Virus record (IMG/VR): IMGVR_UViG_3300032144_000023
Coordinates: 1 to 44,708 of that record
Length of the DNA stretch: 44,708 bases
Strand: one strand, 5' to 3'
Source: a virus
This document shows positions 1 to 44,611 of the stretch, one piece after another. The notes under the pieces are model-generated. The model made no database searches. It was not told where the DNA came from and saw only the letters and a program-made list of their open reading frames with translations. The translations under genes were made by a program, and so were the position numbers. Every line of letters starts with the position of its first letter. Positions within the stretch are counted from its first letter, which is position 1.

Positions 1-531
1 GTGTATCTCGCGGACGTTGCGTGGTGGCTACCACGTGAGAGCGGCACGATCGCGCAGGCCGCGATCGAAAGTGCGCTCATGCGTGACGCTGGAACTGGCC
101 TCTACATGGCAGGCAAGATTCTGTTGAGCGTTGGCGCGCCAGTGTCGGCAGATGACGCAGCGACAAAGGGATACGTGGACGCTGTGGCCGGCGCGGTCAG
201 CAGCACCTTCGCTTGGGCGAGCAACGCAGCCACGATCGCAGTCACTGGCACCGGCGCAGTAGCTGCAGCATCGAACACGATGACTGGCAACTGCACGCTG
301 ACCCTATTGGGCGGCGTCGATGGGGTGCGCGGGACGTTCTACGTCAAGCAGGACGGGACCGGCAGTCACACGCTGACATTGACCGCGTCAGGTCGCACGA
401 TCCTACGCGACACGGGCGTGACAGATGACAACCCGAGTGCCGGCGCCAACACTGTCACTGGGTACGAATACGAGTTCGTGACCGTCGTTGGCACCGCGTG
501 CGTACGCGTGAGGAAGATGCCGCTCGTATGA
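1..531 (+). CDS. C-terminal part of a tail fibre protein (5' end missing), alternative haplotype
   Basis: The reading frame is open from the first base, so the start lies outside the window and only the last 176 or so residues are seen. [11 protein letters not shown] motif near residue 50 is typical of phage fibre proteins and resembles [12 protein letters not shown] in the large fibre at 40683-43520. It is followed by a beta-rich domain of about 110 residues full of Thr, Gly and Val. Its stop overlaps the start of the collagen-like protein by 4 bp. The large fibre holds the same place before the other collagen-like copy, but the sequences otherwise do not match. It is therefore probably the equivalent gene from a related phage in the same sample, not a second gene of this phage. 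Confidence 0.7.
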
Positions 532-1622
532 CTGACTTCGTTGTCGTCGTACCGTCTGCGCCGCTGCCGCCAAGCGTGATTGTCACGCCCACGAAGGCGC
601 TGACGGTCGACGTCACGCAGGAGCAAGGGCCGCAGGGACCCACGGGCGCGACTGGCGCGCAGGGGCCACAGGGTGAAGTCGGGCCGCAGGGCGAGACCGG
701 AGCGCAAGGGGAGCAGGGGCCGCAGGGTGACGTGGGGCCCGTCGGTGCCACGGGACCGCAAGGCGAAGTCGGCGCTACTGGTGCGCAAGGCCCGCAGGGG
801 GAGACGGGGGCTCAGGGGCCGCAGGGTGACGTCGGCGCTACCGGAGCGACAGGGCCGCAAGGTGAAGTCGGCCCGCAAGGCGAGACAGGCGCAACGGGGG
901 CAGCTGGGCCGAGCAATGTGATTCGAGAGTCAGGCGGTCCGACGGATCTAATCGTGGGGCTGTGGGCGGACGGGACATGGCTCAGGCGGTCAGGCGCAAC
1001 AGCAATCGGCGCGACGCCTAACGCGAGTGATGTGGGCGCAGCCGCAGCCACGCACGGAACGCAACACGCGCGTGGTGGCTCGGACATCGTGGTGGCGAGC
1101 AAGCTTTCGGAGTCGAGCGGGCCGACGACGTTGGACATAGGTGCCGTAGCGAGCGGCGAAGTGCTCACGCGCTCGGGCAGTAACGTCGTCGGAGCGAGCG
1201 CCACGTCTGTGGTCACGAGCGGGTGCATCAAGGCGCTGATTTACCTGAGCGCTGCCGCGAACTCTCACAACACCAGCGCGTGGGGGAAGGTGCCGCTCAA
1301 TGCGGTGTCGTTCGACACGGCGTCTTGCTGGAACGCGGCCAATTTGCGGTTTGTGCCTAACCGCGCAGGCTACTACATGGTGACCGCGCGGGTTCGGCGC
1401 AACAGCGCGGGTACACTCATAGTAGGGGTGTACCGAAGCGGCTCGTTCGGCTTGGCTGTCGGTGACGACATCCCGTCGGTAGCGTTGGCGTCGGCGGGCT
1501 CGGCGCTCATGTTCTGCAACGGCAGCACAGACTACATCGAGATGTATTGTTACAGCGCCGCGACGATAGCCTATACGACAGGGCTGTTCGACACGTACAT
1601 GACTATTGTCGGTCCGTTCTGA
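528..1622 (+). CDS. Collagen-like tail fibre protein with C1q-like C-terminal domain (variant A)
   Basis: A 364-residue protein. Residues 1-32 form a short N-terminal segment, about 33-130 are uninterrupted Gly-X-Y triplets ([12 protein letters not shown] type) that should form a collagen triple helix, and the last 230 or so residues are a linker plus a beta-sandwich resembling phage C1q-like tips. ATG 528 sits in the 4-bp overlap with the preceding stop and is preferred to an upstream GTG at 498. The protein at 43526-44611 is a close relative. The two are almost identical in the C-terminal half, while the N-terminus and the order of collagen triplets differ. Likely role: distal host-recognition fibre, inferred from position and architecture. 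Confidence 0.85.
910..1622 (+). repeat. Near-identical repeat of 43899-44611 (linker and C1q-like domain)
   Basis: The 3' two thirds of the two collagen-like genes match almost base for base, with scattered substitutions (most visible between about 1210 and 1300), while the 5' collagen part is shuffled and the genes upstream are unrelated. Such a conserved 3' end next to a variable 5' end is a common anchor for fibre exchange by homologous recombination. Confidence 0.85.
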
Positions 1623-4226: not shown

Positions 4227-4913
4227 ATGCAGTACCGCCACGTCGCCACGCTCCTCCTCCTCACCGCATGCGAAGCCGCTGACCCCACCGCCGCTGAGCC
4301 CGAGCCCGACCTCACCGAGCTCACCGGCGCTGCCGGCGCCCCGGCCACCGCCACGGTCACCGACCCCGCGACCAGCTGCCCGGTGTGTCCGGCGCCGGCC
4401 AAGCCCACGGTGTGCCCCGCCCCGGCTGCCGCTCCTAGCTGCCCGGCGCAGGTAGAGTGCCCAGCTCCGGTGACGTGCCCGGCGCCGGCAGCGCCCACGG
4501 AGTGCCCTGACCCGTACCCCACGATGCCCACGACGTACGGGGCGGCGGACGCCTGGCCGGTGCCGACCGATCACCCTCACGGGCTCAGCACCTTCTGTCA
4601 CGTGACAATACCCACCCTCGAGCTGAAGCGCCCTGATGGGACCGAGGGCACCACGGTGGTCGACGTCGGCTGCGGTGAGGTCAATGACCCGCGCTGGAAC
4701 CACCTCAATATCCGCTACTCACAGACCCGCACGCGCATCGACCCCGACACCGGGGCTATCAGTCAGGTCACCTCAGAGCGCGGCTGCTACGGGCCCCACG
4801 GCGCCGACGCTGCGGACACCTGCGTGGCGGGGACGAAGTGTTACGTCGACTACTGGATCCCCACCTCCGGGCTCGCGATGCGTACAGCGTGGGGCACCTG
4901 TCTGGCGCGGTGA
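4227..4913 (+). CDS. Predicted lipoprotein with Cys/Pro repeats (lysogenic-conversion candidate)
   Basis: A 228-residue protein starting at ATG 4227. Translation upstream of this ATG in the same frame has no coding character. A short hydrophobic stretch (VATLLLLTAC) ends in a lipobox with lipidated Cys15, so the mature protein should be anchored in the envelope. Residues about 35-100 are a low-complexity linker of repeated CPAPA/CPAP units with regularly spaced cysteines. The C-terminal 120 or so residues look like a compact secreted domain with further cysteines (FCHVTIP, DVGCGEV, RGCYGPHG, DTCVAGTKCYVDYW). It lies outside the structural and replication modules next to the integrase, which suits a gene expressed in the lysogen, perhaps altering surface receptors or excluding other phages. 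That role is inferred. Confidence 0.75.
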   Translation: MQYRHVATLLLLTACEAADPTAAEPEPDLTELTGAAGAPATATVTDPATSCPVCPAPAKPTVCPAPAAAPSCPAQVECPAPVTCPAPAAPTECPDPYPTMPTTYGAADAWPVPTDHPHGLSTFCHVTIPTLELKRPDGTEGTTVVDVGCGEVNDPRWNHLNIRYSQTRTRIDPDTGAISQVTSERGCYGPHGADAADTCVAGTKCYVDYWIPTSGLAMRTAWGTCLAR

Positions 4914-4978: not shown

Positions 4979-5332
4979 ATGACGAAGTCACGCCGCCTCA
5001 AAACCCCCACTAACAAGTACGCCACGTACACCGACTCCGACCTGCATCTCATTGCCACGCAGGGCGGCAGTAACGACGAAGCCCGGCTGGCTGCCCGCGC
5101 TGAGTTCGAGCGCCGCGCAGCTCAGCGAGCGACCGACCGCGCTGACACGCAGCGCCGGGAGACAGCCGCGCTCGACGTCACGATCCTCGAGATCGCGCGC
5201 AGGTTCTGCCGACAGGACCTCGACACGCTGAGCATGCGCAACAGTGACCGCCTCGACTTTATCGAGGTCAGCCGCGCAGGGCTCGCCGACGCACTCCGGG
5301 CAGCCTACGCAGCGGGGCGCGCAGCCAAGTAG
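4979..5332 (+). CDS. DUF6900-type small protein
   Basis: A 117-residue protein. ATG 4979 is preferred to an in-frame start at 4838 because the upstream stretch overlaps the lipoprotein gene and lacks coding character. The N-terminal half is basic and helical (AARAEFERRAAQRATDRA). The C-terminal 50 residues match the DUF6900 pattern seen in many phage and plasmid proteins: ILEIARRFC, DTLSMRNSDRLDFIEVS, then LADALRAAYAAG. The domain has no established biochemical role that I know of. The gene ends 19 bp before a convergent terminator. Confidence 0.75.
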   Translation: MTKSRRLKTPTNKYATYTDSDLHLIATQGGSNDEARLAARAEFERRAAQRATDRADTQRRETAALDVTILEIARRFCRQDLDTLSMRNSDRLDFIEVSRAGLADALRAAYAAGRAAK

Positions 5333-5350: not shown

Positions 5351-5383
5351 CAGCGGGGCGCCTCTCACCGGGGCGCCCCGCTG
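5351..5383. terminator. Convergent bidirectional terminator
   Basis: Perfect 12-bp arms CAGCGGGGCGCC (5351-5362) and GGCGCCCCGCTG (5372-5383) around a 9-base loop, between the rightward gene ending at 5332 and the leftward operon ending at 5398. The U-tract is weak (CCGTTTC on the right). Confidence 0.7.
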
Positions 5384-5397
5384 CCGTTTCGGGCCCC

Positions 5398-5616
5398 TCA
5401 GTCCTGCGTTCCCCCGGGGTCCGTGCGGTGAGACAGGGCAGCCCGTACAGCCGCGTCCTTCGCCTCGAGGAGCTTCCTCAGCGCCACCGTGCGCTCCGGG
5501 CTCCGCGCGATGGTGCGCACCACCCACTCAGCGAGTGAGGCGAACGGGGCGCTGTACTGCTGCAGCTCAGCGGGCAGGTGCTCGTAGCGGAAGAACTGTT
5601 CGATCTGGTCAGCCAT
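5398..5616 (-). CDS. Acb2/Tad1-like small helical protein (candidate anti-CBASS/Thoeris sponge)
   Basis: A 72-residue protein with a good Shine-Dalgarno (AGGAGA, 5 bases before the ATG). IEQFFRYEHLP is followed by two predicted helices, the second reading ERTVALRKLLEAKDAAVRA. The layout of a short aromatic N-terminus, a helix LAEWVV and then an (E/D)RT.ALRKL.EAK.A..RA helix matches the Acb2/Tad1 hairpin family as I remember it. Characterised members (for example phage T4 Vs.4) bind cyclic dinucleotides or gcADPR and blunt CBASS or Thoeris immunity. It is the last gene of the leftward early operon, a suitable place for an early-expressed counter-defence protein. Ligand binding here is inferred from family resemblance only; some relatives are annotated merely as hypothetical. 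Confidence 0.55.
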   Translation of the reverse strand: MADQIEQFFRYEHLPAELQQYSAPFASLAEWVVRTIARSPERTVALRKLLEAKDAAVRAALSHRTDPGGTQD

Positions 5617-5625
5617 GTATGTCTC

Positions 5626-5865
5626 CTAGCGTAGTAGTCCACAGTCAATCAGGATCTGGTCGTATTCATCACGGGGCGCCACGCTGGGCGCGCTGCGGGT
5701 GGTGCGCACCGCCGCCATGAAGACAGCCGCGTCCACCCCGGAGCAGCGCCGGCTGAGCTGAGCCATGCGGATGCCGTTGGCCTTCGCGAATCGCTTCACC
5801 GCAGCCCACGGCATACCCGTGACCGCCTCGGCGTTGCGCGCTGTGATGATTAGCGGCTGAGTCAT
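5626..5865 (-). CDS. Small DNA-binding protein (excisionase-like HTH candidate)
   Basis: A 79-residue protein whose ATG overlaps the stop of the RecD2 helicase part by 4 bp (ATGA). Residues 5-35 (LIITARNAEAVTGMPWAAVKRFAKANG) read like a winged or MerR/AlpA-type helix-turn-helix. The remainder is short and polar, and the C-terminus ends DEYDQILIDCGLLR. Size and fold would fit a recombination directionality factor or a small regulator. It is not next to the integrase, so excisionase is only one option. Confidence 0.6.
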   Translation of the reverse strand: MTQPLIITARNAEAVTGMPWAAVKRFAKANGIRMAQLSRRCSGVDAAVFMAAVRTTRSAPSVAPRDEYDQILIDCGLLR

Positions 5866-6989
5866 GCTGCCGCCCCACGGAGGCGGTCAGCGAGCCCGGT
5901 GAGGCGGTGGCCGCCCTTCGAGCGCAGCCCCGTGTTCAGACCCCGCATGTCGCCCACCAGGGTCACGTGCACCTTCGCACGCGTGATCGCGGTGTACAGC
6001 AGTGTTCGGTCGAGCATGTGACTGTGACTCGAGTGCGCTACGACAATCACACGCTCGTATTCGCTGCCCTGCACCCGGTGCACGCTGAGCGCATACGCGA
6101 GCTCCAGATCCCGCGGGCTCGAGCGGGTCACGCGCTCGAGCTCAGGCCAGCGCACCACCAGCTCGCCGCCATCGCTCGGGCCCACGATGACTCCGATCTC
6201 GCCGTTCATCACGTCCAGGTCGTAGTCGTTGCGCGTCTGAATCACGCGGTGCCCGGGGCCAGGCATGTGATCGGGCTGCCCGTCGACCGCGGGTGCGAGG
6301 CAGCGGTTTAGCGCGTCGATGCCGCAGGTGCCGCTGTACATCGGGGCGATGACCTGGGCGCCTTCGGGCAGCGCGCGCGCGGACACCTCCGCCACCACGC
6401 GCTCGGCCGACTCGCACTCGACCCAGGTATCCGGGGTGAGCTCGGGGACATCACCCTCGAGCACGCGCGGGGCGTTGCGAACTACCCAGCTGCCGGCAGC
6501 CGCGCGATGCTGTGTGGCCAGCCGGCAGACGGGCACACGCCCCGATGCAATGAGGTCACGGAAGAAGGTGCCGAGCCCCACCGGGGGCAGCTGGTCCGCA
6601 TCACCGACCAGCACCAGGCGACTCTGTGAGGTCCCGTTGAGCAGCGCCACCGTGAGCTCGTAGTCGAGCATGGATGACTCGTCGACGATGACCCAGTCAG
6701 CGCGCAGCGGGTTCCGCAGGTTGAATGTCCACCCGTGGCTGCCCCGCCACCCGAGCATCCGGTGCAGCGTGCGCGCAGGGAACCCGGTGGCCTGAGCCAT
6801 CCTGCGCGCAGCCTTCCCGGTGGGCGCGGCGAGCTCGATGACCGAGCCCTGCGGCAGCGCTGCGATCGCTGCGCGCATGGTGGTGGTCTTGCCTGAGCCC
6901 GGTGGTCCGGTGATCACCACCAGGCGTTCGCTGAGAATGGCCGCTACCGCAGCAGCCTGTTGAGGATCGAGGTCACCCGAGCCGATCAT
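5862..6989 (-). CDS. RecD2-like helicase, ATPase/helicase half (separate gene)
   Basis: A 375-residue SF1B helicase motor. It has Walker A GPPGSGKTT near residue 27, Walker B IVDESSML, motif GDADQLPPVG, SVHRVQGSEYERV (motif V region) and LLYTAITRAK (motif VI). In ordinary RecD2 these follow an N-terminal OB/HhH part in the same chain; here that part is encoded by the preceding gene. ATG 6987-6989 has a good Shine-Dalgarno (GGAGG, 6 bases upstream) inside the end of the upstream frame, with a 17-bp overlap. Two coupled polypeptides are therefore more likely than a frameshifted single protein. Expected role: 5'-3' DNA unwinding in replication, repair or recombination, with the RecB-like nuclease of the same operon. 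Confidence 0.85.
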   Translation of the reverse strand: MIGSGDLDPQQAAAVAAILSERLVVITGPPGSGKTTTMRAAIAALPQGSVIELAAPTGKAARRMAQATGFPARTLHRMLGWRGSHGWTFNLRNPLRADWVIVDESSMLDYELTVALLNGTSQSRLVLVGDADQLPPVGLGTFFRDLIASGRVPVCRLATQHRAAAGSWVVRNAPRVLEGDVPELTPDTWVECESAERVVAEVSARALPEGAQVIAPMYSGTCGIDALNRCLAPAVDGQPDHMPGPGHRVIQTRNDYDLDVMNGEIGVIVGPSDGGELVVRWPELERVTRSSPRDLELAYALSVHRVQGSEYERVIVVAHSSHSHMLDRTLLYTAITRAKVHVTLVGDMRGLNTGLRSKGGHRLTGLADRLRGAAA

Positions 6990-7848
6990 TGATTGCCTCC
7001 ACGATCGTCTGCTCGAGTGAGTCGCTACGTCGCGAGTAGACGTAGCTGCCGCGCTTGACGAGCAGACCTTTGTCAAGCGCGCGCATGAGCCCAGCCAGCA
7101 CCACACTGCGGTCGCAGTTCAGCAGCGCCTCACACGCGACCTGGAACAGCCCCGCGCGCATCCATGCGTGACCTTCCGTGTGATGGGTGTCGATGGCGTG
7201 CTGGATCCCCGCATCGATGCGGGTGGGCGCATCGAGCGGCAGCCCGGTGCGCCGCGCCACCACGTCGGCACGTAGCCACCCGAACCCCGGCACGTTCCGA
7301 ACGAGCACGTAGGGGTCCTCGCGGATGTCTTGTGAGCTGACACCGGCAGCGGCGCACTTGGCGATCTGGTTAGGTGTCATGCCCCAGCTGGCCATGGTCA
7401 CCTGCTCAGCCCGACTCATGCGTACCTTACGGTAGGCTTGGTGTAGCTCGTCTGCGCGGGTGGGCGTGATGCCGTCCAGCTCGCACAGCCGCTCGGGCTC
7501 GGAGTCGAGCACCTGCCAGGTGGCCTCGGCCGAGCCAAAGTGAGCGAGCATCGCACGCGCGCGCGTGGTGCCCACATACGGCAGCGTGGCCGTGAGCCAG
7601 GCGCACGCCCCGTCCACGGAGGTCGGTGGGCTCAGCTCCGCGCGCGCGATCACGAGCTGCTGACCCCACCGCTCGTGCGTCTCATACACCCCCTCGATCT
7701 CGATGCGGTCACCGGGGCGAGCTCCGGGCACGAGCCCCACGATCGCGACCTCGCGCGCATCCTCCGAGCGCATCGCCCCGGTGCCCCAGCCGCGCGAACC
7801 GTATGCCGTCCAGCGCACGATCTCACCGCGCTCTGTTACAACTTGCAT
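6973..7848 (-). CDS. RecD2-like helicase, N-terminal OB/HhH half (separate gene)
   Basis: A 291-residue protein. The first 75 residues look like an OB-type fold (VGLVPGARPGDRIEIEGVYETHERWGQQ). Helix-hairpin-helix segments follow (LPYVGTTRARAMLAHFG, LDGITPTRADELHQAYR), then the RecD2 middle region (VPGFGWLRADVVARRTGLP), ending in a winged-helix-like stretch (LMRALDKGLLVKRGSYVY). This is the usual N-terminal half of RecD2, stopping exactly at the linker before helicase domain 1A. It overlaps the upstream small gene by 13 bp. It should pair with the ATPase gene at 5862-6989; whether the two form one complex is inferred. Confidence 0.8.
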   Translation of the reverse strand: MQVVTERGEIVRWTAYGSRGWGTGAMRSEDAREVAIVGLVPGARPGDRIEIEGVYETHERWGQQLVIARAELSPPTSVDGACAWLTATLPYVGTTRARAMLAHFGSAEATWQVLDSEPERLCELDGITPTRADELHQAYRKVRMSRAEQVTMASWGMTPNQIAKCAAAGVSSQDIREDPYVLVRNVPGFGWLRADVVARRTGLPLDAPTRIDAGIQHAIDTHHTEGHAWMRAGLFQVACEALLNCDRSVVLAGLMRALDKGLLVKRGSYVYSRRSDSLEQTIVEAINDRLG

Positions 7849-8063
7849 ACGACCCCCAGGTCATCGCAAACCGCGAGAAATGCCGCGCGGGAGCCCCCTC
7901 GCTTGGCGTAAATCGCGAGCAGCAGTTCGAGCGCGAGCACGGTCACCCGCTCGTCTGCAGCAGGGCCCTTGGCGATGTACTCAGGGCCCGACTCCAACGG
8001 GAACACGAGCGTGACCGTGTACTCACCGGGGCTCGTGATCAGCGCGCTGATCGTCGGGGTCAT
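7836..8063 (-). CDS. Small hypothetical protein of the leftward early operon
   Basis: A 75-residue protein starting in a 4-bp ATGA overlap with the upstream gene and ending 13 bp inside the RecD2 N-terminal gene. The first half is beta-like (GEYTVTLVFPLESGPEYIA), the second a helix (VTVLALELLLAIYAKRGGSRAAFLAVCDDLG). The tight coupling supports expression, but I do not recognise the family. Confidence 0.65.
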   Translation of the reverse strand: MTPTISALITSPGEYTVTLVFPLESGPEYIAKGPAADERVTVLALELLLAIYAKRGGSRAAFLAVCDDLGVVCKL

Positions 8064-8842
8064 GTCTGAAACTCGTCGGGGTTGAAGGAGGTGTCGTCCG
8101 CCACCTCAGCCTGCCCACCGGCCATGGCCTGGCGCACGGTGCCGATGATCTCCATGGCCTCACGTGCCTCGGGTACGGTCATCGGTCGCAGCTTCTCGAT
8201 CACCGGTATCGCGTAGCGGTGGTTGTCGCTGAGCTTGAGCGTGAGGCGCACCCGGTAGGACCACAGCGGCTGGTTACCCGTGGGTCGTCCGCTCGCCGCC
8301 TTGCGCTTCAGGATGTGGTGCTTGTTGAGGTGCGTGAGCCACACGGGCTCGGAGGTGCGCTTGAATGTAATGATGAACGGGACGTGCTCCCGGAGGTCCA
8401 CGCAGAACACCTGGTACACCTCGTGGCAGTTCACGCCACGTTTGCCGTTAGGCATGGGGCGCCACTGCGCATCGGGGCACGTGGCGCACACGCGCACCTC
8501 ACCCGAGTCGGCGAGCACACCGGTGACCTTGTCGGGGCTCGAGCACAGGACCTGCGTACGGTCCTCCGCATCGAGGTAACGCGTCCACGCTCGGGACCCA
8601 TGTGTGTCTACTAACACCGCTTCAATGTCAGGCATCGTCACCTCACTCACGGTGTCGTAGTAGACGTTAGGCGGGATCTTATTCCCGGCTGAGTCGAGCC
8701 CGGGTGTGTTGAAGATGCGTCTGGCCACGCGGATTTTGTCCGCGCCCACCGCGTGCGAGTAGCCATCCGGTGCGTCGGGGAACGCGTCTAACAGTTCATC
8801 TAATGTTGGCTCGGCGTTAGGTACTGTCAGGTCATTATTCAT
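8060..8842 (-). CDS. Cys-cluster phage protein, possible ssDNA-binding or recombination accessory
   Basis: A 260-residue protein with a 4-bp overlap at each end. The centre carries CATCPDAQW and then NCHEVYQVFCVDL, giving a CxxC...C...C set that could bind zinc. Around it are beta-rich segments (YQVFCVDLREHVPFIITFKR; LWSYRVRLTLKLSDN) and a helical acidic C-terminus (EAREAMEIIGTVRQAM ... DDTSFNPDEFQT). An acidic tail plus a beta core next to a RecB-like nuclease and a RecD2 helicase would suit a single-strand DNA-binding or annealing factor. I cannot place it in a named family and the role is inferred from context. Confidence 0.7.
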   Translation of the reverse strand: MNNDLTVPNAEPTLDELLDAFPDAPDGYSHAVGADKIRVARRIFNTPGLDSAGNKIPPNVYYDTVSEVTMPDIEAVLVDTHGSRAWTRYLDAEDRTQVLCSSPDKVTGVLADSGEVRVCATCPDAQWRPMPNGKRGVNCHEVYQVFCVDLREHVPFIITFKRTSEPVWLTHLNKHHILKRKAASGRPTGNQPLWSYRVRLTLKLSDNHRYAIPVIEKLRPMTVPEAREAMEIIGTVRQAMAGGQAEVADDTSFNPDEFQT

Positions 8843-9864
8843 GGTGTGGGGTTCTCCAGGGCAGCTAGTTGTTTGAGCAGCGCGATCTCAGCGGGGTCGG
8901 TGGCGTCGTAGCCCGTGGCGAGGCAGGGCTTGCGGTACGGGCAGCGGTCACACTGGTCGGTGATCCGATCGGGGAACGCGCCCATCCGTACTGGGCCCAC
9001 GGTAGCGCGCAGCCGCGCAGCCAGCCGCTGCAGGTCGCCTTCGTGCAGGGCCACGGGCATCCACGCTCCGCCTCGGCGGTCCTTCGCCTTATACGCGTGC
9101 TGGCAGGGTTGGGCATACCCGAACAGCCGGAGGTCCTCAGCGCGACTCACCCATCGCGAGCCCGCTCTCACATAAGGCACGTAGTCACCTAAGTGGACTT
9201 GATAGACCTCAGACGGGAACACGCCATAGGTTGGAGTGATAGATCCGGCCAGCGCGGCATCGATCAGCACACGCTCGGTGGCCTCACGGCTCTCACCCTC
9301 GGGAATGAACAGCCCGTGGCGGAGCCCGGCGCTGTACACGCCAGCCTCCCAGCCGTGGTCGAGCTCAACCACCGCAGGCTTCTGCGCGCCAGTCTTCCAG
9401 TCGGCCATGCCGATGGTGCCCGGAGCGACAATCGGCTCGTACACAAGATCGATGTGACCGCTAAGCCAGTAGCGATCGAACGCAGCGATGAACGCGCACT
9501 CGCACGCGATCACGCGCAACACGTATCGCTCCAGCTCCGTGAGTACACCGCGAATCATCTCCGCGCGATCTGTGATCAGACGGTGTGGGTTCTCATCGTA
9601 CCATTCGATCGCACCCTCTACGTCGAGCGCCTCTCGCAGCTGCGCCTCGTAAGATGCGCTGGATGCACGAGTAGTTAGAGCCCGAGCGAGCACTGCGTGT
9701 GTCGCGCTGCCGAGTGCAGGCTTCCAGCTCGTAATCTCTCTCGCATCTGGTCGAGTGCGCTGGTAGTAATAACGCTTCGGACAGCTGTATGGTCCGTTCA
9801 GCGTCATGAGGTGAGACTTATGGATGGGGTCTCGAACCCCTCCGTACGTTCTGTGTGACCACAT
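8839..9864 (-). CDS. RecB/Cas4-type PD-(D/E)XK nuclease with Fe-S cysteines
   Basis: A 341-residue exonuclease, first gene of the leftward early operon. Nuclease residues are visible in order: His56 (GSATHAVLA), Asp139 (SGHIDLVYEP), Asp155 and Lys157 (ADWKTG), and a following Gln/Glu-rich helix. Cys28 (SCPKRYYYQ) and a C-terminal CDRCPYRKPC (Cys305, 308, 314) match the split four-Cys Fe-S cluster of AddB/Cas4-like nucleases. It likely resects DNA ends for recombination or replication, with the RecD2 pair downstream. The HKSHL segment before the first Cys is typical of the family's N-terminus, so the first ATG (9864) is kept. A -10-like box ends only about 9 bp upstream of this ATG. Confidence 0.88.
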   Translation of the reverse strand: MWSHRTYGGVRDPIHKSHLMTLNGPYSCPKRYYYQRTRPDAREITSWKPALGSATHAVLARALTTRASSASYEAQLREALDVEGAIEWYDENPHRLITDRAEMIRGVLTELERYVLRVIACECAFIAAFDRYWLSGHIDLVYEPIVAPGTIGMADWKTGAQKPAVVELDHGWEAGVYSAGLRHGLFIPEGESREATERVLIDAALAGSITPTYGVFPSEVYQVHLGDYVPYVRAGSRWVSRAEDLRLFGYAQPCQHAYKAKDRRGGAWMPVALHEGDLQRLAARLRATVGPVRMGAFPDRITDQCDRCPYRKPCLATGYDATDPAEIALLKQLAALENPTP

Positions 9865-21052: not shown

Positions 21053-21583
21053 TTAGGCGCCGACGAGGCTGAGGAACAGGTTCCGCGTGGCCGTGTTCCG
21101 CGCTGGCCGGACGGTGGGGCGTGAGCTCGCAGCGGCAGCATCCGCCCAGCGGCGCTCGCTCACCGCAGCCCGGAGTCTCACGTTCCTGTGGAGCCCGACC
21201 ACCCCCGGGGTCATTGCCATATCGAGCAGCGCCACGCGGGCAGCGTTCGGCAGCGCCGGCAGCTCCCAGGCACGCATGAGGGGGTCGGAGGCGAGCGCCT
21301 GTACGTGGCTGTCGAAGTGCTGCCGCACGTTCTCGGGGACCATCTCCGCGGTGCACAGCGTGAGGTAATAGCGCGAGACGTGCCCGGGCTCCGCTCGCCG
21401 CACACGATCGTAGTCTTCGTCCGCAGCCAGCACGTCAGGCTTCCACGCGTAGCGATCTAACGCTGCTTTGTTAGGGATGAGAAACCTAACACCACACACA
21501 ACGCTGCCTCGCTCGTCAAGACACAGGTGGTAGGTGATGCCCTCGAAGGGAGCGCTGAACTCCCATTGTGTCATCTCACTCAC
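21053..21583 (-). CDS. Endolysin, lysozyme-like muramidase
   Basis: A 176-residue protein from GTG 21583, in a 4-bp overlap with the methyltransferase stop; ATG 21574 is an alternative. The N-terminus has FEGITYHLCLDERGSVVCGVRFLIPN, which aligns with the lysozyme core E-x8-D...G-x-V-T-x-G: Glu of FEG and Asp of LCLDERG are present, but the usual Thr position is Val. The C-terminal ARVALLDMAMTPGVVGL, LRAAVSERRWADAAAAS and ARNTATRNLFL follow the typical 'ALLDMAFNLGxxGL ... DWxxAA ... RNxxTxxLF' layout of phage muramidases. It should cleave host peptidoglycan at lysis. No signal sequence is seen, so a holin is needed. It lies on the strand opposite to the late genes. Confidence 0.75.
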   Translation of the reverse strand: MSEMTQWEFSAPFEGITYHLCLDERGSVVCGVRFLIPNKAALDRYAWKPDVLAADEDYDRVRRAEPGHVSRYYLTLCTAEMVPENVRQHFDSHVQALASDPLMRAWELPALPNAARVALLDMAMTPGVVGLHRNVRLRAAVSERRWADAAAASSRPTVRPARNTATRNLFLSLVGA

Positions 21584-22773
21584 TGTGCCACCTCGACCGT
21601 TGCGCCGGTGATTCGTGTCGCCTGAGCACCGGTCAGCGTCTGCCACCGGTGGACAATCGCGTCGCAGTACGCAGGCGAGATCTCGACCGCGTAGCAGGTG
21701 CGCCCCATCTCCTCGCACGCGATGAGTACGGAGCCGCTGCCGGCATAAGGATCGAACACATCCCCGGGGCACGCGTCCAAGCAGAAGCGCATGAGCGCCA
21801 CCGGCTTCTGCGTCGGGTGTATCCGCTTCGTGTGCTCACCCTCACGCATGAGCCCGTTCCACAGCTGGTGGTGCACGCGTGCTTGGCCGGTGAGGTTCGT
21901 CCAGGCGAGCTCACAGTCAGCGAACGAGTTGACGATGCCGGAGTCGACGCGCTTGTCCCAGACGAACCAGCAGCCGTTCGCGGGCAGCTGATCAGCGAAG
22001 TACTGGCCGCCCCAGATGATCGCGCGGGTAGCTCGCTCGGGGATCCAGCGCACGTCGGGCACCGCCTCGTCACCGTGGACCTGCGGGTACGTCGGAGGCT
22101 TGGCCAGCTTGCCGAACTTGGAGCGCTTGCCGAAGTGTGATCCCGCAGCGCCGACGAACCCGTCCTTCGTCACCACCGAGATACCGTACGGTGGGTCGGT
22201 GAGCACGAGGTCGAACTTGCGCGGAGGAGCCCAGCCCCGGCAGTCGGCGCACACGAGTGTGTGACGACCGAGCTGCCAGACGTCGCCCAGCTTCGACACA
22301 GTCTCAGCGGGCACTTCGACCGCAGGCTCCTCGGGCTCTCCAGCGAGGCGGATGGCCGCGACCTCACGGTTCAGGCGCTTGAGCTCGTGGTCCGACCAGC
22401 CGAGCGCCGGCAGCTCGGTGGGCTGCAGCTCGCTCAGCAACGCGTGCAGCTTGGTAGGGTCCCACTCTGACAGTTCATACAGCTTATTGTCAGCCAGGGC
22501 TAACTTGTGAGCCTGTGCCTCGGTGAGGTCTATAAACCTAACAGGTACTAACGCCAGGCCGAGACGCTGTGCTGCCTGCCACCGCGCGTGACCCGCGATG
22601 ATCTCACGCGTGGCAGCGCGCGCGACAATCGGGGCAGCGAAGCCGAACTCGGTGATGGACGCGGCAACCTTGTCGATCGTGGCGTCGTCACGACGACGTG
22701 GGTTGGCTGCCCAAGGTTGTAAGGTGGATGGATCGACCCACTGGGCCGGTGGCGGGGATTGCTTTGGAGCCAT
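21580..22773 (-). CDS. ParB-domain DNA methyltransferase (DPPY, N4/N6 type)
   Basis: A 397-residue protein. Residues about 10-100 are a ParB/sulfiredoxin-like nuclease-type domain (WAANPRRRDDATIDKVAASITEFGFAAPIVARAATREIIAGHARWQAA and ALADNKLYE). Residues 160-390 are a beta-class amino-methyltransferase: catalytic DPPY at 193-196, HPTQKP at 319-324 and the SAM-binding DPYAGSGS at 341-348. Such ParB-methylase fusions are common in phages and methylate adenine or cytosine N4, protecting phage DNA or marking it. No partner restriction enzyme is present. It is first of a two-gene leftward unit with the endolysin, starting from a divergent region shared with the terminase operon. Confidence 0.9.
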   Translation of the reverse strand: MAPKQSPPPAQWVDPSTLQPWAANPRRRDDATIDKVAASITEFGFAAPIVARAATREIIAGHARWQAAQRLGLALVPVRFIDLTEAQAHKLALADNKLYELSEWDPTKLHALLSELQPTELPALGWSDHELKRLNREVAAIRLAGEPEEPAVEVPAETVSKLGDVWQLGRHTLVCADCRGWAPPRKFDLVLTDPPYGISVVTKDGFVGAAGSHFGKRSKFGKLAKPPTYPQVHGDEAVPDVRWIPERATRAIIWGGQYFADQLPANGCWFVWDKRVDSGIVNSFADCELAWTNLTGQARVHHQLWNGLMREGEHTKRIHPTQKPVALMRFCLDACPGDVFDPYAGSGSVLIACEEMGRTCYAVEISPAYCDAIVHRWQTLTGAQATRITGATVEVAQ

Positions 22774-43525: not shown

Positions 43526-44611
43526 ATGACCGAGTTCGTCGTCGTCGTCCCGCGCGCCCCCTTGCCGCCCACCGTGGTGGTCACGCCCAAGCTCGCGGTG
43601 AGCGTCGACGTCACGAACGAGCAGGGGCCAGTCGGGCCCACAGGTGCCACCGGTGCGACAGGACCGCAGGGTGAGCAGGGTGAGCTCGGCGCCACCGGAC
43701 CGCAGGGCCCACAGGGCGACGTCGGGCCCACGGGTGCGACGGGACCGCAAGGCGACGTCGGCCCGGTCGGTGCGCAAGGACCGCAGGGTGAGACCGGCGC
43801 TCAGGGCCCGCAGGGTGACGTCGGCGCTACCGGAGCGACAGGTCCGCAAGGCAACGTCGGACCACAAGGCGCAACGGGTGCAACAGGGGCAGCTGGACCG
43901 AGCAATTTGATTCGAGAATCAGGCGGTCCGACGGACCTAATCGTTGGGCTGTGGGCGGACGGGACATGGCTCCGTCGATCAGGAGCTGCAGCTGTCGGCG
44001 CAACGCCTATCGCGAGTGATGTGGGCGCAGCCGCAGCCACGCACGGGACGCAACACGCGCGTGGTGGCTCGGACATCGTGGTGGCGAGCAAGCTCTCTGA
44101 GTCGAGCGGTCCGACGACGTTGGACATAGGTGTCGTAGCGAGCGGCGAAGTGCTCACGCGCTCGGGCAATAACGTCGTCGGAGCGAGCGCCACGTCTGTG
44201 GTCACGAGCGGGTGCATCAAGGCACTGATTTACCTCAGTGCGGCTGCAAACTCCCACAACACCAGCGCTTGGGGAAAGGTACCGCTCAACGCTGTGTCGT
44301 TTGACACAGCGTCTTGCTGGAACGCGGCCAATTTGCGGTTTGTGCCTAACCGAGCAGGCTACTACATGGTGACCGCGCGGGTTCGGCGCAGCAGCGCGGG
44401 CACACTCATAGTAGGGGTGTACCGAAGCGGCTCATTCGGCTTGGCTGTCGGTGACGACATCCCGTCTGTAGCGCTGGCGTCATCAGGCTCGGCGCTCATG
44501 TTCTGCAACGGCAGCACAGACTACATCGAAATGTATTGTTACAGCGCTGCGACGATAGCCTATACGACAGGGCTGTTCGATACGTACATGACTATTGTCG
44601 GTCCGTTCTGA
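43526..44611 (+). CDS. Collagen-like tail fibre protein with C1q-like C-terminal domain (variant B)
   Basis: A 361-residue protein. The N-terminal 32 residues ([26 protein letters not shown]) are related to, but clearly different from, variant A. About 100 residues of Gly-X-Y repeats follow ([13 protein letters not shown] type), then a linker and C1q-like domain nearly identical to variant A. Unlike variant A it is preceded by the intact large fibre gene, so it is the version belonging to the continuous genome in this window. Host-recognition tip is inferred. Confidence 0.88.

Follow-up and report, generated by a model that had tools for sequence, protein, structure and literature searches.

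The stretch of DNA analyzed here (the window) is a complete virus record of 44,708 bases. The encoded phage carries an integrase, a repressor-like gene and a tail sheath, and from these it looks like a temperate myovirus; a megablast search of the first 12 kb of the window against phages returned no match. Elsewhere in the window a DNA methyltransferase fused to a ParB-like N-terminal domain (21580-22773, minus strand), collagen-like GPQGE repeats (498-1622, plus strand) and tail-fibre matches (43526-44611, plus strand) were observed. The gene in question is located on the minus strand at 5398-5616, where an open reading frame with an ATG start at 5616 encodes a hairpin protein of 72 amino acids. 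Its GC content at the three codon positions (0.71/0.48/0.85) fits coding DNA of such composition, and a ribosome-binding site AGGAGA (5622-5627, minus strand; AGGAG at 5627-5623) lies just upstream of the start codon. A preceding sequence-only reading had described an early, possibly counter-defensive gene with its own ribosome site at the end of an operon; the reality of the gene, its ribosome site and its position were all confirmed, the first by reading frame, coding-like GC and a match to PHROG 1761, a family kept in hundreds of loci.

The gene is the last of a tight seven-gene minus-strand operon reaching from 9864 to 5398, in which adjacent genes overlap or are separated by 9 bases. The operon starts with a PD-(D/E)XK exonuclease (8839-9864; PF12705 1.7e-18; phrog_69), followed by a gene for 260 amino acids (8060-8842; phrog_23155) and one for 75 amino acids (7836-8063) without family match. 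The RecD-like helicase that follows (5862-7848) is split into two overlapping genes, an N-terminal OB/HHH part (6973-7848; PF14490 1.8e-15), which covers 39-303 of phrog_4412 (length 743), and a C-terminal ATPase part (5862-6989; PF13604 1.3e-38), which covers 331-726 and, judged by start context, likely begins with the ATG at 6989; both parts occur in this order in the contig L049, too. Immediately upstream of the hairpin gene a gene for 79 amino acids (5626-5865) is found, which has no family match and a homologue in the contig L001. Conservation of the neighbourhood extends to L049, which shows the same succession of nuclease, 8060-type gene, split helicase and window-type hairpin gene, and to L001, where two of the neighbours are kept. 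From these recombination-type neighbours, early expression of the gene is plausible. Downstream, a convergent DUF6900 gene is situated on the plus strand at 4979-5332, the mechanical start of its reading frame at 4838 being probably too far upstream, and between the two convergent genes folding of both strands revealed a GC-rich inverted repeat of 12 bp (5351-5383; about -45 kcal/mol for 68 bases), which is a probable terminator that lacks a T-run and hence is not of the orthodox intrinsic type.

The protein matches PHROG 1761 at 5.8e-26 and PHROG 5120 at 4.7e-19, which represent an abundant family without described function, its members being annotated as 'hypothetical protein'. At least 586 IMG/VR loci encode a member, as do 317 of 50,697 phage records and 195 loci in bacterial genomes of many phyla, and identity to the window protein reaches up to 73% in dozens of phage contigs. 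Searches of Pfam, NCBIfam and PDB sequences with the window protein and with the profile A1 yielded chance matches only (DHX37_C, ExsE and the like), and the annotations 'occludin homology' and 'anti-TRAP' found within the family were rejected as weak chance matches. Among 153 family sequences H13, L14, E41, R47, K48, L49, L50, E51, K53, D54 and R58 are invariant in rounded percentages, and residue 11 is aromatic or His (Tyr, Phe, Trp, His) in about 98%. Two stretches of the gene were delimited: the codons of residues 9-14, FRYEHL (5575-5592, minus strand), with F9, H13 and L14 conserved in the alignments and the aromatic residue 11, and those of residues 41-59, ERTVALRKLLEAKDAAVRA (5440-5496, minus strand), which form the second long helix in the AlphaFold2 (AF2) model and hold the invariant residues from E41 to R58 in the column counts of the 153 sequences. 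The product had been said to end in this helix, which is present, but 13 more residues (ALSHRTDPGGTQD) follow, mostly variable and of low confidence in the model. Some relatives are extended at the N-terminus, like that of the Erwinia jumbo phage pEa_SNUABM_30 (L555:3827-4261), where a stretch with a P-loop-like motif GDVGSGKSA precedes the hairpin, and those of L016, L067 and L070 with a recurrent extension MGQAFDxxGxxLG...REVFDKL or similar.

Phages use the helical hairpins of Acb2 and Tad1 ('sponges') to soak up bacterial alarm nucleotides, and the sequence-only reading had placed the product close to these. The corresponding model PF24729, with a curated cut-off of 27 bits, did not match the window protein, and even the best relatives within the family, the cyanobacterial L186 and L197 with SRETAVALRKLLEAKDAAVRA, stayed below this cut-off with 18.3 bits (E 0.003), so that the direct profile match which that reading would lead one to expect did not appear; T4 Vs.4 as positive control reached 71 bits. 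In L186 and L197 these proteins were the top PF24729 match across their whole genome. When PF24729 proteins were collected, four types were obtained, and one of them, the SREKS subfamily (PHROG 1454; 74-86 bits with PF24729, 1e-20 to 1e-24), led to the family in question. In a search of 19,733 open reading frames of the fetched family loci with the SREKS profile, 125 of the 136 matches at E<=10 belonged to the PHROG 1761/5120 family, the best at 3.5e-4 and the first non-family frame at E 0.87; counted by members, 131 of 153 were found at E<=10 (Z=20,000; best 3e-4), and the reciprocal search of the SREKS subfamily with the family profile succeeded as well. Alignment of both profiles with hhalign (153 sequences) gave a probability of 68-89% and E 2e-6 to 5e-5, a score reached by none of 300 column permutations (best 18.3 vs 29.5) and not by the reversed profile (11.2), and the smaller alignments A1 and A2 gave weaker values (40%, E 3e-4). 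T4 Vs.4 was linked to the SREKS subfamily at a similar level (74-81%), so that the distance of the family to SREKS about equals that of SREKS to a proven sponge.

The independently built PHROG models cross-match in both directions, the PF24729 member L425 with PHROG 1761 at 6e-4 and the family member L197 with the canonical PHROG 1454 at 3e-4 (and with PF24729 at 0.004), and direct BLASTP of L467 (PF24729) against L186 showed 37% identity over 49 amino acids (E 5e-7 for one comparison). The SREKS type in turn matches the solved 'Acb2 homolog 43' (2e-4) and, weakly, Tad1. Neither the separate profiles of RW-type and T4-type Acb2 nor a mixed profile of every Acb2 type reached the family, for which the SREKS subfamily is the sole bridge, and PF24729 searches in Actinomycetota and Alphaproteobacteria retrieved mostly chance matches in long proteins. 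Thus, undoubted PF24729 members are connected to the family via intermediate sequences, and judged by these profile comparisons the window family is very probably homologous to the Acb2/Tad1 hairpins, as a sister family. With its score below the curated threshold and its ligand residues changed, it is classed neither as Acb2 or Tad1 nor as PF24729.

The AF2 model of the window protein (pLDDT 90) displays helices at 3-8, 15-34 and 39-63 (71-residue numbering without the first Met), and that of the canonical SREKS protein L425 at 3-8, 18-39 and 44-67; the predicted topology is the same as that of the Acb2/Tad1 hairpin. Foldseek against BFVD retrieved the protein's own family and then many 'Acb2/Tad1 hairpin domain-containing' proteins, the first of them with a probability of 0.99, but with an E-value of 0.14. 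Against the PDB neither Acb2 nor Tad1 was returned for the window model, whereas in a control with the L425 model both the solved Acb2 (7uq2 / T4 Vs.4, probability 0.97) and Tad1 were found, so that the family has diverged further in structure and is not merely below the reach of the method. Of the proposed likeness to Acb2/Tad1, remote homology, topology and, as shown below, the linkage of family members to Tad2 and to domains that Tad1 and Tad2 also carry therefore stood, whereas the PF24729 match, the PDB fold match and the basic ligand residues did not.

As phosphate- or ligand-contacting basic residues of Acb2 we take K26 and R67 (PaMx33). The first of these positions (position 26 in PaP2) aligns with Ser22, a Ser in 97% of the 153 family sequences, and the second, the Arg of the RW/SRE motif, with Pro40 (82% Pro, 12% Ala), so neither basic contact is kept in the window family. 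In helix 2 the MWAN pattern is gone and K53, D54 and R58 are gained. With the two basic residues replaced and another set being invariant (H13, E41, R47, K48, E51, K53, D54, R58), a ligand other than cGAMP or cA3 is to be expected. On these residues, it is unlikely that the protein is a sponge sharing the ligands of Acb2, whereas it may be one for a different ligand, or it may bind a protein. The aromatic site, by comparison, is retained, as window Tyr11 matches Y8 of T4 Acb2 in the joint alignment, and the Y8A mutant of the latter lost cyclic dinucleotide binding (PMC12657218). The N-terminus had further been suggested to mark a subgroup whose ligands may be uncharacterised, and of the sequence-only reading this is the most defensible part.

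Compared with known systems, the SREKS subfamily is most similar, with the same length and the same short N-terminal helix and long hairpin, an F-x-Y-H-x-P like the F-x-Y-x-H-L-P of the window family and a common motif LA..I....P.[SN].E[KR][ST].AL.KL.EA. The window family differs in a shorter stretch ahead of the first long helix and in the replacement of the SREKS invariants R26, R44, T51, E54, V57, W59 and N61 by S, P, R, L, K, A/C and V, respectively; no functional test of the SREKS subfamily was found in the literature searched. Acb2 (T4 Vs.4, PaP2 p26) shares the topology (reviewed in PMC12043709, PMC10419184) and, unlike the window protein, possesses longer helices as well as basic residues at positions K26/R67. 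Its C-terminal aromatic residue (T4 F82, PMC12657218) has no conserved counterpart in the window family; a significant direct profile match between Acb2 and the family was not obtained. The C-terminal hairpin of Tad1 (PDB 7uav, 8smd), with SREN.CALT.VEEA.MW, resembles the window hairpin, but the N-terminal beta domain of Tad1, which takes part in the gcADPR pocket, is missing in the window protein, a hairpin only of 72 amino acids. Tad2 (PF11195) has an unrelated fold, and its association with the window family is genetic, through genes lying next door to each other and through accessory domains found in both; PF11195 did not match the window protein, which is not a Tad2 member.

This sharing of domains concerns two modules, PF21825 (crAss001_48) and a YIGTK/SWSPK domain, for which no Pfam match was seen and which shows the N-terminal pattern YIGTK...GYxVxYxDGYxSWSPKxxFExAY. 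The latter is fused to the family hairpin in L176, L188 and the Vibrio phages 1.185.O and 1.205.O. In L512 (PF11195 1e-26), among others, its partner is Tad2, and in L507 it is a full-length Tad1 (8e-12 to Tad1 structures), so that Tad1 and a window-type hairpin both occur behind the same domain (L507 vs L176). PF21825 is fused to the family hairpin in L486, L487, L498 and L503 and to Tad2 in L520 and L554, and in Vibrio phage 1.205.O a PF21825 and Tad2 fusion is the neighbour of the family gene. The extension of L176 and L188 was also considered as a Tad1 beta domain and showed no sequence match to Tad1, and the YIGTK domain cannot be the Tad1 domain, since it precedes that domain in L507. 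The YIGTK/SWSPK domain likewise precedes PF13876, of unknown function, which marks the shared domains as promiscuous. Altogether, the two modules recur in changing combinations with Tad1, Tad2, PF13876 and hairpin proteins (L507-L552, L553, L554, L486, L503), and this shuffling possibly reflects a set of phage anti-defence modules. A PF11195 search of 116 whole viral records detected five Tad2 genes, none of them more than 1.5 kb away from a family gene, for which random placement has a chance of about 5e-6 (product of chances); the record L485 nearly duplicates the prophage of L133. The only Tad2 of the genome also adjoins the family gene in four bacterial genomes, which had been selected for this adjacency. 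Overall, Tad2 lies nearby in only a small minority of family loci.

Several explanations can be weighed against this background. A short amphipathic hairpin might resemble Acb2/Tad1 by convergence, as short helical hairpins yield weak and easily misled scores and the PF24729 and PDB searches were negative; this is improbable given specific, reciprocal profile matches that withstood column permutation, the existence of intermediates like SRETAVALRKLLEAKDAAVRA and SREKSIALRKLEEAVMWANASIA and the conserved N-terminal F-x-Y followed by His. An accessory virion or morphogenesis protein would suit Acinetobacter phage B1251, Gordonia phage Pimento and Vibrio phage 1.205.O, in which the gene is surrounded by head genes and the major capsid gene is close by, but elsewhere the gene is found among nucleotide-metabolism genes (RpAliso), near a genome end or, in the window and in the order kept in L049, at the end of the recombination operon. 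A position that changes in this way is the habit of accessory genes and counts against a structural component, for which we see only a small chance.

More serious, albeit still rather unlikely, is a hairpin homologous to Acb2/Tad1 which forms oligomers and inhibits a host protein, be it a defence effector or a regulator, with the invariant charged residues of helix 2 as its contact surface. That the K26/R67 positions no longer carry basic residues would agree with such protein contacts, as would the presence of R47, K48, E51, K53, D54 and R58 in 100% of 153 sequences from phages and prophages of many phyla and the adaptor-like fusion of the hairpin module to several different N-terminal extensions. 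However, the canonical SREKS hairpin is about equally rigid in conservation and its family includes proven nucleotide binders, and the idea presupposes that the targeted host protein is itself conserved between hosts as distant as Cyanobacteria and Actinomycetes.

Our preferred explanation, held with slightly more than even confidence as a whole, is a free-standing hairpin of Acb2/Tad1 descent that forms an oligomer sequestering an immune signal. The window protein would share a hairpin ancestor with Acb2 and with the C-terminal part of Tad1, would by analogy assemble as a small oligomer and could thereby sequester a host-made nucleotide or nucleotide-like immune signal, which would allow the phage to escape abortive infection. 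By this analogy the window family probably acts in counter-defence by sequestering a signal, at about an even chance. More tentatively, and with less than even confidence, PHROG 1761/5120 could be an unrecognised and very large sponge branch with a pocket rebuilt for a nucleotide that known sponges do not bind, belonging to a shuffling set of anti-defence modules together with YIGTK/SWSPK, PF21825, Tad1 and Tad2. Carriers of the gene number in the hundreds, both phages and prophages, and span Pseudomonadota, Actinomycetota, Cyanobacteriota, Planctomycetota and further phyla. The link to Acb2/Tad1 makes of a 'hypothetical protein' a small and easily tested counter-defence candidate. The network of modules around Tad1 and Tad2 offers a route to further candidates, and the altered pocket may be a hint of a so far undescribed immune signal.
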